Positions 14,675 to 61,949 of a DNA stretch of 64,000 nucleotides are shown here, piece after piece. The stretch is from an uncultured Psychroserpens sp. (GTDB lineage Bacteria > Bacteroidota > Bacteroidia > Flavobacteriales > Flavobacteriaceae). A program made the translations under genes and the position numbers. The DNA lies in the NCBI RefSeq assembly GCF_947501425.1, contig NZ_CANMVN010000001.1:310001-374000 (forward strand), in the 5' to 3' direction. The notes under the pieces are model-generated. The model was not told the origin of the DNA and made no database searches. It saw nothing but the letters and a program-made list of their open reading frames with translations. Each line of letters opens with the position of its first letter. Within the stretch, counting starts at the first letter, position 1.

Positions 14675-14680
14675 TCATTT

Positions 14681-14746
14681 AAAAACAAAAACCCTGTTTC
14701 ATTTTCGATGCATCGAGATTGAAACAAGGTTATATGTAATTGATTA
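14681..14746 (-). ncRNA. Putative small RNA, copy B, ending in hairpin plus U-tract (minus strand)
   Basis: Minus strand reads ATTAATCAATTACATATAACCTTGTTTCAATCTCGATGCATCGAAAATGAAACAGGGTTTTTGTTTTT; near-duplicate of copy at 14908-14978; no supporting ORF. Confidence 0.5.
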
Positions 14747-14795
14747 ATAGCAAGGCTAAAATCGTAAAAATTAGGAAGGCTTTACAAAAAAAACT

Positions 14796-14825
14796 ATGAG
14801 TGGTAAAAAAATCTGTATGAATGGT
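14796..14825 (-). promoter_or_regulatory. Putative LytTR-type binding site (9-bp direct repeats, 21-bp period), copy B
   Basis: Minus strand ACCATTCAT-ACAGATTTTTTT-ACCACTCAT; 9+12 bp architecture fits the published LytTR consensus [TA][AC][CA]GTTN[AG][TG] x2 with mismatches. Confidence 0.45.
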
Positions 14826-14907
14826 AATTATCAAAAAATCTCATAAGATGATCCTAATTCAATGTATTGAAAATTAGATTTTTTTATCTGTTTAATCAAG
14901 AATATAT

Positions 14908-14978
14908 AAAAAGACAAAAACCTTGTTTCATCATTGACAATACGTCAAATTAGAAACAAGGTTATGTGTAATTGATTA
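14908..14978 (-). ncRNA. Putative small RNA, copy A, ending in hairpin plus U-tract (minus strand)
   Basis: Minus strand ATTAATCAATTACACATAACCTTGTTTCTAATTTGACGTATTGTCAATGATGAAACAAGGTTTTTGTCTTTTT; stem AACCTTGTTTC/GAAACAAGGTT followed by T-tract; inner stem TTGAC/GTCAA. Confidence 0.5.
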
Positions 14979-15027
14979 ATAGCAATGCTAAAGTCGTAAA
15001 AATTAGACTTGGTCTGGAAAAAAAACT

Positions 15028-15057
15028 ATGATTGGTTAAAAAAACTGTATGAATGGT
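15028..15057 (-). promoter_or_regulatory. Putative LytTR-type binding site (9-bp direct repeats, 21-bp period), copy A
   Basis: Minus strand ACCATTCAT-ACAGTTTTTTTA-ACCAATCAT upstream of putative sRNA copy A. Confidence 0.45.
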
Positions 15058-15265
15058 ATTTTTTTGATTTTTTTTAAGATTAACGGAACTCTGTAATTTT
15101 TTGAAAAATAAGTTTTTGATGATGTAAGGCTTTTCATCAAAAAATTCAATTGAGAACGAAAATCAAGTATAATTTTAATATTTTCAACGATTTAAATGCT
15201 TAAAAAAGGTTTCAAAGCAAATTTTTATTTAAATTTAAGATGCTATTAATCAAACAATTATTATT

Positions 15266-15838
15266 ATGAAATTATTACTAAAGTTAATTATGCTTTCCTT
15301 TTTTATTTCATTTACATCTTGTGAAAAAGATGATTCGATGTCTGAAGACAATATCAATAGGGAAATAAAAAACGAAAAGGAAAAAGATGAATGCGAGACT
15401 GCTTTCGCATATGGTAAACCAGAAGAAGCGATTTGTTTTTTAGATGATGACGAGTTAAACTCTAACAGATGGGGTTGGTCAATTGGACCAATTTCTGTTA
15501 ATCATAGTGAGTCATACCTTATATATCAGTCTGCTGGAGGGTGTAATCTGGATAATGGTGAGCTTATTGGAACGCTCCATGTTGTTTATGAATCAGACTA
15601 TGTATTAGTAGATTTTGTTGCTAATGAAGGATATGGTTTTTTTGAAACTCATTTATTTGTTGGTAATGAAAAATATCCAAGAAAAAGGAATGGTCAGTTT
15701 ACTGTAGCTCCAGGCCAATATACGGAAAGCAATAATTACCCAGATGGCTCATTAAATGATAATTATAAAATTGATAATGTTGAGGGTCAAATATATATCA
15801 TTGCTCATGCAGTGGTTTGTCCATTCAAAAAAAATTAG
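15266..15838 (+). CDS. Putative lipoprotein, unknown function
   Basis: 190 aa; MKLLLKLIMLSFFISFTSCEKDDS lipoprotein signal. Confidence 0.75.
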   Translation: MKLLLKLIMLSFFISFTSCEKDDSMSEDNINREIKNEKEKDECETAFAYGKPEEAICFLDDDELNSNRWGWSIGPISVNHSESYLIYQSAGGCNLDNGELIGTLHVVYESDYVLVDFVANEGYGFFETHLFVGNEKYPRKRNGQFTVAPGQYTESNNYPDGSLNDNYKIDNVEGQIYIIAHAVVCPFKKN

Positions 15839-15880: not shown

Positions 15881-17014
15881 TCAACTGTACTTCACTTTGC
15901 GCAGTATTCGGACAGCTTCTTGGTAATAGGTATAAACTTCTTTGCTATGATTTTTTAAATACGGCTTAGCTTCAGTTAATTTGTTTATGGCCTCATGGAA
16001 AAGGTTGAGATAGCACAGAAGATATGTGGTTGGGAGGTTTTTCAGATCTAATTCTTCATGTTTATTCAAAATTAATCCCTTTTTCAATTTTTCTAAAATG
16101 GCGTTATTGGAATTGTAAATGTGATGCAATACCTTTTTGTCAAATTGAGGAGGTTCAAAAAGTAAATTGGTCTCGATATTATAATGTGCATTATCTTCAA
16201 AATGGATGATGGTCTCTTCAAGTTGATAGTATTTGTTTTTATTTTGAAGACCTAAATTTACATATTCAATTATTTTAAACGTATTGCTGTCATACATTAT
16301 TGATACTTCATCCAACGTAGAAAAGAACAATCTAACTTGCTCATTTATTAATTCAATATCTACTCTAGAGAAGAAGGTTTCGTTTTTCACCTTCTTTTTT
16401 TGACCAGACCAGCACAGTACAAAATACTCTTTAAATACCTTATATTGAGGATCAAAGTCTTTACGTTTGGTCATAAAATCAAATACGCCATCTAAAGTAT
16501 ATTCAATATTGTTTTGAGCATGAGACTCTATAGCATTTACAATTTTAGAATTTACATCTTTGACCTCAATATCAAACACCTTAGGCATACTCATACTGCC
16601 ATCTCTAAAAAACACGGAGCCACCATAATATTTCCAAATATTCTTACGTAGCGATGTTATTTGATTGATAGGTCTAATAGTAACTAGTCCAACCACTTTA
16701 TCATCTGGTAAATGAGGAAACGGGATGTTTTCATACTGTACAATTGGTGGATTTGTTAGATAGGCATTGATAAGATTTTGAATCTTGCTATCGTCAAAAA
16801 AGTTAACACCAATAATCTTGTTGTCCTCATCTTCAACACCAATAACTATGTAAGAGTTATTTTTAGGATTGCTATTTGAAAGTGCACAAATATGTTTTAA
16901 AAATTTTGCTTTTCCCTCTTTATGAGTGATATCAACTTTACGCTTTTTATCATAAAAACTATTCTCATCATTATGAGCTAATAGATTTTTAATAAGCAAT
17001 CGTTTATTGATCAT
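15881..17014 (-). CDS. AlbA_2/Schlafen-like putative DNA/nucleic-acid-binding domain protein
   Basis: 377 aa; GKAKFLKHICALSNSNPKNNSYIVIGVEDEDNKIIGVNFFDDSKIQNLINAYLTNPPIVQYENIPF matches AlbA_2-type domain layout. Confidence 0.8.
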   Translation of the reverse strand: MINKRLLIKNLLAHNDENSFYDKKRKVDITHKEGKAKFLKHICALSNSNPKNNSYIVIGVEDEDNKIIGVNFFDDSKIQNLINAYLTNPPIVQYENIPFPHLPDDKVVGLVTIRPINQITSLRKNIWKYYGGSVFFRDGSMSMPKVFDIEVKDVNSKIVNAIESHAQNNIEYTLDGVFDFMTKRKDFDPQYKVFKEYFVLCWSGQKKKVKNETFFSRVDIELINEQVRLFFSTLDEVSIMYDSNTFKIIEYVNLGLQNKNKYYQLEETIIHFEDNAHYNIETNLLFEPPQFDKKVLHHIYNSNNAILEKLKKGLILNKHEELDLKNLPTTYLLCYLNLFHEAINKLTEAKPYLKNHSKEVYTYYQEAVRILRKVKYS

Positions 17015-60412: not shown

Positions 60413-60550
60413 AATCTTTGGCTATGATTTGAGTTTAAAGTTACAAAGTTTTGCGTTAGTGATTGCAGTGAAAATCCTTTTGTATTACAAAAGATTGTAG
60501 CGTAAAGCACGGTGCTGCGGAGCTTTTTTGCTAAAATATTTTGAAGGTGT

Positions 60551-60580: not shown

Positions 60581-61949
60581 AGAACCCAATGATGAGTCCG
60601 GAGAGTACAAAAAACAAATAGATACCTAATATATCATTACTTGTTGTGATAAATGGTCCTGTGGCAATCGCTGGATCGATACCTCGTTTGTCTAAAATAA
60701 TTGGAACAAAGGTCCCAACCAATGCAGCAACTATAATAACACTCATCATGGAAACAGCAATAGCGAGACTTTCGGTGGCATTTTGATTGATAGCAAAACC
60801 AAATAAAATAACGAGTATTGCCAAGGCAAAACCATTGATAAGACTTAATCCTACCTCTTTTACCAAACGGTTGAAGATGCTTCCCTTTACGTTGTCGTTA
60901 GCAAGTCCCTGAACAATAATAGCACTGGATTGTACACCTACATTTCCAGCCATTGCGGCAATAAGTGGTGTGTAGAAAAATAATGAAGGTACAGTAGCCA
61001 TAATGTCTTCATAACCTTTCATAATAAAGACAGAACCTAAACCGCCAAAAAGCCCCAATACCAACCAAGGTAAACGTGCTTTGGTAAGTTCCCAAACAGT
61101 ATCATCAGCTTCTACATCTTGTGTGATACCTGCAGCTAACTGATAATCTTTTTCGGCTTCTTCTTTTAAAACATCAACAATATCATCAATTGTGATTCTC
61201 CCTAATAAGGTTTGCTCGTCATCAACTACAGGAATAGCTTCTAGATCGTATTTTGACATGACCTTTGCCACATCTTCCACATCATCATTGACATGAACAT
61301 AATCCACATTATCTTTAGCAATATCAGCTATCTTTTGTTCACTTTTTGCTACAATTAGATCTTTAAGTGATAATCTGCCTATTAGTTTTTCTTCTTTGTT
61401 AACAACGTATATAGAATGTACTCTGGTGACCTCTTTTGCCTGACCTCTGATACGACGTAAGCAACCTGCTACAGTCCAAGTTTCATATACCTTAACCAAC
61501 TCTTTTGCCATCAAACCACCTGCAGAATCGTCTTCATAGGTAAGTAATTCGGTAATTTCCTCTCGGTGTTCTTCATCTTCAATTTGGGAAATAACTTCAG
61601 CTTGTCGTTTTTCGGGTAATTCGGCAATAATATCAGCAGCATCATCGGTGTCTAACTCTTCAACTTCTTCGGCAATTTCTTTAGCAGATAGTTTTTCAAG
61701 AACTTTCTCTCTGGTATCTTCATCAAGTTCTGTTAAGATATCTGAAGTGGTTTCAGAATCTAATAATTTGATAAGATATACCGAATCCTCAAGACTTAAC
61801 TCGTCCAGGATTTCGGCAACATCGGCATAGTGAAACTCATTTAAAAGTAGTTTTAGTTCTTTGTCGTTCTTAAGTTCAACAAGACGTTCTACTTTATCAA
61901 TAAGTTCATCGGTAAGCTCAAATTGGATGTTTTCTTTTTCTTCAATCAA
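60579..61949 (-). CDS. mgtE: Magnesium transporter MgtE
   Basis: 456 aa; N-domain repeats, CBS YVHVNDDVEDVAKVMSKYDLEAIPVVDDEQTLLGRITIDDIVDVL, PLIAAMAGNVGVQSSAIIVQGLA. Confidence 0.95.
   Translation of the reverse strand: MIEEKENIQFELTDELIDKVERLVELKNDKELKLLLNEFHYADVAEILDELSLEDSVYLIKLLDSETTSDILTELDEDTREKVLEKLSAKEIAEEVEELDTDDAADIIAELPEKRQAEVISQIEDEEHREEITELLTYEDDSAGGLMAKELVKVYETWTVAGCLRRIRGQAKEVTRVHSIYVVNKEEKLIGRLSLKDLIVAKSEQKIADIAKDNVDYVHVNDDVEDVAKVMSKYDLEAIPVVDDEQTLLGRITIDDIVDVLKEEAEKDYQLAAGITQDVEADDTVWELTKARLPWLVLGLFGGLGSVFIMKGYEDIMATVPSLFFYTPLIAAMAGNVGVQSSAIIVQGLANDNVKGSIFNRLVKEVGLSLINGFALAILVILFGFAINQNATESLAIAVSMMSVIIVAALVGTFVPIILDKRGIDPAIATGPFITTSNDILGIYLFFVLSGLIIGF

Follow-up and report, generated by a model that had tools for sequence, protein, structure and literature searches.

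Two tandem small RNA (sRNA) genes, hereafter A and B, very probably lie on the minus strand of an intergenic gap in the genome of an uncultured Psychroserpens species (Flavobacteriaceae), within the 64,000-nucleotide (nt) window analyzed here (contig NZ_CANMVN010000001.1, positions 310,001 to 374,000; coordinates are those of the window unless a contig is named). As read from sequence, they are best explained as trans-acting sRNAs with a 5′-terminal seed, a reading to which we assign a probability of roughly 0.6. It is favored because of the conservation of the genes, the covariation of their hairpin, the spacing of the −7 promoter box, synteny with a DUF5929 gene, and a fold that leaves the 5′ end open, and further because the same 5′ decamer leads other sRNA-like units with unrelated hairpins, the complementary 12-mer is enriched, complementary sites are conserved at the same genes, and the predicted duplexes are stable.

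Structure of the Tandem Units

The units are direct copies (14681-14829 and 14910-15061), 82% identical over 131 nt at an offset of 232, with an extra 22-nt 3′ end at 91% identity, much as the original prediction of two ∼150-bp copies ∼230 bp apart had described them; no further full copies occur in the genome. The gap that holds them (14675-15265) is flanked by two genes that, as had been stated, both run on the plus strand: a DUF1501 gene (a match to PF07394, itself preceded by a DUF1800 gene), and a lipoprotein-like open reading frame (ORF; 15266-15838, +), for which Pfam gave no match.

On the basis of −7 box spacing, fold, and conservation, the predicted transcripts are 77 nt long for sRNA A (14907..14983, −) and 74 nt for sRNA B (14678..14751, −), each starting at the G of GCTATTAATC. 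Both have a 17-nt, mostly unpaired 5′ segment ahead of a terminator-like hairpin that is followed by an interrupted U-tract (14919..14963, − in A; 14690..14731, − in B; assigned from repeat, fold, and covariation). These hairpins with U-rich tails, likened to terminators in the original prediction, have folding energies of −20.9 and −19.3 kcal/mol in the two units (z of −4.7 and −4.8), far stronger than dinucleotide shuffles, none of 200 being as good. A simple terminator scan of the window, which permits loops of 3-8 nt only, returned no terminator at either unit; the hairpin has an internal loop and the U-tract is interrupted (UUUUUGUCUUUUU).

The unpaired 5′ segment that had been proposed as a seed is indeed present, invariant, and mostly unpaired as predicted, but its bounds and position needed correction: it begins at GCTATTAATCAATTACA, the ACC... 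that had been counted in it is part of the stem, and the seed belongs at the 5′ terminus (GCUAUUAAUCAAUUACA). As redrawn, the putative seed of sRNA A (GCTATTAATCAATTACA; 14967..14983, −) has a mean unpaired probability of 0.87, and that of sRNA B (14735..14751, −) one of 0.76; positions +1 to +14 (GCTATTAATCAATT) are invariant in the 47 aligned copies from the genus.

Conservation and Synteny

The gene is present in all 25 Psychroserpens genomes examined, in one to three tandem copies, and in 24 of them it is found by DNA match. An absence from genome G009 was considered and rejected, as the gene stands at the syntenic site there with one seed change (GCTATTAATCAG). Among the aligned genus copies, the two-part hairpin stays paired in 96.2% of cells (vs. 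just 35-48% when the pairing is slid along the alignment as a control), and both sides have changed in 9 of its 14 pairs, a degree of covariation reached by none of 500 shuffles. When species are compared, first tandem copies group with first and last with last (7 label changes vs. 14.8 when shuffled), which indicates that the duplication is old, and by this sequence evidence vertical. The proposal of two tandem sRNA genes, here put at ∼75 nt each, is thus strengthened by genus-wide presence, a covarying hairpin, a fixed −7 box, and strict synteny. A lack of conservation among relatives, which the original prediction had named as grounds for refuting it, is contradicted by these comparisons.

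Homologs also occur family-wide. A covariance model built on this seed was searched against 400 Flavobacteriaceae-level genomes from 237 genera, and found homologs in 113 genomes and 77 genera, although some weak ones may be chance. Those with the same neighbors include Winogradskyella, Mangrovimonas, Lacinutrix, Bizionia, Gelidibacter, Subsaxibacter, Yeosuana, and Snuella. In the family, the sRNA usually lies directly behind a gene with SLFN_AlbA_2 and DUF5929 domains, on the same strand, and the conserved C-terminus of that gene (RILRKVKYS*) was located upstream of the RNA in 68 of 87 fetched loci, mostly 57-150 nt before its start. The corresponding anchor upstream of the locus in the window, recognized by Pfam and synteny, encodes 377 amino acids (15881..17014, −); in this species, the lipoprotein gene intervenes between it and the sRNA pair. 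Some lineages carry seed variants (GCTATTAATCTTTT, CAG). Outside the Flavobacteriaceae, the promoter-plus-decamer pattern (TTTGNNNNGCTATTAATC) is found at about chance level in 395 class-level genomes, and the exact seed is absent from IMG/VR viral contigs. A lone pattern match in an “Acidobacteria” metagenome-assembled genome (L154) overlaps a long ORF and is likely due to chance or contamination. A literature search returned no paper with GCUAUUAAUC and nothing on this RNA, which may nevertheless coincide with one of the Rfp RNAs of Flavobacterium psychrophilum; the RNA family spans the Flavobacteriaceae and is apparently undescribed.

Predicted Promoters and Putative Regulator Sites

Sigma-A promoters of F. 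psychrophilum have a TAnnTTTG box at −12 to −5 (PMC9723704), and placing this box accordingly sets +1 at the G of GCTATTAATC (14983 in A and 14751 in B). The boxes are GACTTTAG (14988..14995, −) for sRNA A and GATTTTAG (14756..14763, −) for sRNA B. In a position profile of 98 family copies, A occupies −11 in 95 and T occupies −8, −7, and −6 in 98, 97, and 79, respectively, while G is found at −5 in 71; GCTATTAATC follows the box with three deviations altogether. Each unit is therefore predicted to have its own promoter, with a TAnnTTTG-like box at fixed spacing to +1.

The ∼80 nt upstream of each RNA, comprising this promoter and a putative regulator site, are likewise repeated and conserved. 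The putative site is a pair of 9-nt direct repeats with a 12-nt spacer (consensus ACCATTCAT-N12-ACCAMTCAT) at −74 to −45, namely ACCATTCAT-N12-ACCAATCAT for sRNA A (15028..15057, −) and ACCATTCAT-N12-ACCACTCAT for sRNA B (14796..14825, −); it is conserved in the genus and partly in the family, in which the upstream sequences of other genera differ. In LytTR sites, repeats of 9-11 nt are separated by spacers of 11-13 nt (PMC4847170), and the AgrA site is centered near −60 (PMC4227749). Because the repeats in the window agree with these descriptions in repeat length, spacer, and a center near −60, a LytTR-type activator for the sRNA pair is a reasonable inference from this anatomy.

A 5′ Decamer Shared With Other Predicted RNAs

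In the same genome, TTNGNNNNGCTATTAAT occurs 10 times, whereas its reversed control is absent. Apart from A and B, three intergenic decamer loci resemble sRNA genes with unrelated hairpins. One (L182; C1:439020, −) adjoins a LuxR-type response regulator and recurs in relatives; another (C7:106666) recurs in other species and is located behind a coaD-like gene in relatives; the third (L188; C9:79608, −), which has a terminator-like hairpin and is conserved across genera, lies in the leader of an ORF that begins MRKILFGV and could be either an sRNA or an attenuator. Similar decamer-led units occur across the family.

Some mRNAs also appear to begin with the decamer, including that of the neighboring lipoprotein. 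A third copy of TGCTATTAATCAA (15241-15253, +) lies ahead of this ORF, and the decamer-led GCTATTAATCAA (15242..15253, +), also present in a relative (G005; L238), is its predicted 5′ leader. Within the window, TGCTATTAATCAA has four matches at ≤1 mismatch vs. 0.41 expected, a number reached in none of 100 shuffles. One decamer copy with a single mismatch (TGCTATCAATCAA; 60783-60795, −) is close to a Flavo-1 RNA. Behind a murB-like gene (L065 and orthologs) and a purE-like gene (L058 and orthologs), the decamer directly follows the terminator, with a −7-like box present at the former and absent at the latter.

Complementary Sites as Candidate Targets

The complementary 12-mer TTGATTAATAGC is found 12-24 times per Psychroserpens genome (5 in G009), vs. 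0-3 for the reversed control, and its enrichment over that control in sRNA-bearing genomes is ∼20-fold. Of the 400 family genomes, those in which the sRNA was found average 9.6 occurrences (reversed control, 0.50) and the others 1.4 (control, 0.32), and the medians per genome are 9 with and 1 without the sRNA (Mann-Whitney p ∼1e-47, or ∼1e-42 minus the sRNA copies themselves, with genomes treated as independent of ancestry).

Target prediction was by pattern matching and simple ORF calling, and covered exact or near-exact complements only. Excluding A and B, 105 intergenic sites were examined in the genus: 22 fall ≤100 nt after a co-oriented stop (16 of these are then followed by a terminator), 20 precede a co-oriented start, and 25 are sense decamers before a start. 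Particular genes have target-like sites in several genomes, including an SCP-type lipoprotein (5 genomes), RND/aspS (5), YceI (4), and fasciclin (3); a pirin site is present in three genera, and a STAS gene is a further conserved candidate. The predicted duplexes between seed and site span 12-15 bp at −15.4 to −18.6 kcal/mol, a stability matched by no more than 4 of 500 shuffles. These observations suggest that the seed probably pairs with untranslated regions (UTRs). Pairing between the 5′ and 3′ ends of one transcript was rejected, as no decamer was found before the genes with 3′-UTR sites. At five loci (L225, L246, L262, L277, and L281), a complementary 12-mer occurs ∼70-80 nt before a conserved gene of ∼309 amino acids (MNAVAINS.../MKFFAINL...), a possible 5′-UTR target.

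Proposed Mechanism and Alternative Explanations

In the mechanism we propose, sRNAs A and B would be transcribed from two separately promoted minus-strand genes as RNAs of 74-77 nt starting at GCUAUUAAUC. Transcription is probably sigma-A dependent, and to judge by the site anatomy, a LytTR-type regulator that binds at −74 to −45 may activate it. Each RNA would expose a 5′-terminal seed of ∼13-17 nt and end in an intrinsic-terminator hairpin; the seed would pair in trans, over 12-15 bp, with AUUGAUUAAUAGC in mRNA UTRs, many of them just upstream of intrinsic terminators, and this pairing may alter mRNA stability or translation without Hfq. Both RNAs would be part of a Flavobacteriaceae-wide sRNA set with a common 5′ decamer. 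A more far-reaching claim, which we advance tentatively and consider less probable than its negation, is that of an Hfq-free, Flavobacteriaceae-wide regulon. In it, the one 5′ decamer GCUAUUAAUC would be common to non-homologous sRNAs and to some mRNA leaders, and would pair with a fixed complementary element that immediately precedes intrinsic terminators in 3′ UTRs. Such pairing would amount to a post-transcriptional code directed at 3′ ends and conserved at orthologous genes.

Several observations weigh against the trans-acting reading. The decamer also seems to begin some mRNAs and could therefore belong to the promoter, and some sites (on the purE side) fit neither role cleanly. The 12-mer count is not a pure target count because decamer-led RNAs are included in it, and the 98-copy profile is in part a product of ascertainment, since this seed went into building the model. 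The changed seed of G009 is not accompanied by clear matching changes in its sites, and no helper protein was found, neither Hfq nor an RRM_1 protein being detected in the Psychroserpens genome.

The alternative that fares best, though we hold it unlikely, is that the RNAs are real and the decamer acts as DNA, in the promoter or the initially transcribed stretch (an operator or preferred start), and not as an antisense seed, reflecting shared transcription control. This would account for a decamer locked to +1 behind a −7 box in the sRNAs as well as in several mRNAs, but leaves unexplained the complementary 3′-UTR sites, which lack a −7 box, stand before terminators, and are conserved at particular genes. 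Less probable again is a reversal of roles, by which RNAs released from 3′ UTRs (site plus terminator) would regulate, and the tandem RNAs would be decoys (sponges) imitating targeted 5′ leaders. A site followed by a terminator in a 3′ UTR is the anatomy of 3′-UTR-derived sRNAs, and the decamer does occur in some mRNA leaders; pairing alone separates neither this nor the trans-acting reading from the other. However, a decoy needs no fixation at +1, and the tandem RNAs have conserved promoters and putative regulator sites of their own.

It is very improbable that the hairpins merely terminate the transcript of the DUF5929 gene or are its processed 3′ ends. Although the unit lies on that gene's strand, 57-150 nt behind it, in most relatives, a plus-strand lipoprotein gene stands between them in the window, a −7 box, an invariant +1 region, and upstream repeats accompany each copy separately, and a terminator has no need of an invariant 5′ decamer. 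A mobile or REP-like (repetitive extragenic palindrome) intergenic repeat with no regulatory role, which two imperfect copies with palindromes might bring to mind, was rejected on synteny and copy number: the genome has no full copies beyond these two, different genera share a single orthologous locus, and the duplication is apparently old and vertical.

Comparison With Known RNAs and Significance

The tandem units match none of 4227 Rfam families (among which the presence of the FopS model is unconfirmed), and nothing even at E ≤ 5. The suggestion that they might belong to Flavo-1 or another Rfam motif is therefore not borne out, and Flavo-1 (RF01705), likewise a widespread RNA motif of the Flavobacteriaceae, was rejected as an identity, since its covariance model does not match them at that threshold. 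The only Rfam match in the window is a Flavo-1 RNA at 60448-60518 (+; 52 bits).

Among enterobacterial sRNAs, OmrA and OmrB form a tandem pair and RybB combines a 5′-terminal seed with a terminator; these sRNAs are Hfq-dependent. The Psychroserpens RNAs share both arrangements, but no Hfq was detected in their genome; sequence relation to these sRNAs was compared via Rfam only.

The nearest parallel is the FopS family (with GibS) of Bacteroides thetaiotaomicron, whose many paralogs have a single-stranded 5′ seed and a terminator, with RbpB as partner; FopS targets susC-like genes by pairing close to their start codons, and has been deposited in Rfam (PMC11697453). The likeness extends to the single-stranded seed, the terminator, and a TAnnTTTG-type promoter. 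In contrast, the Psychroserpens genome has no RRM_1 (RbpB-type) match, its seed starts at +1 and is common to units with unrelated hairpins, and its candidate sites are often in 3′ UTRs, where most cases are genes other than susC-like ones. The Psychroserpens sRNA family thus resembles FopS in outline, while membership is unsupported by the features tested. Rfp18 of F. psychrophilum is also a conserved flavobacterial sRNA, but pairs through its third stem-loop (PMC9723704), and by this description is set apart from an RNA with one hairpin and a 5′ seed.

Members of the Flavobacteriaceae are major marine polymer degraders, in which post-transcriptional regulation is little known and few sRNAs have been studied. 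Because the sRNA gene is conserved, its locus and seed are fixed, and its conserved candidate targets are few (pirin, YceI, SCP-type lipoprotein, fasciclin, STAS, and RND/aspS), the use of seed-pairing sRNAs in this family becomes directly testable, as does the question of whether 3′ UTRs are among the principal sites to which such sRNAs pair.
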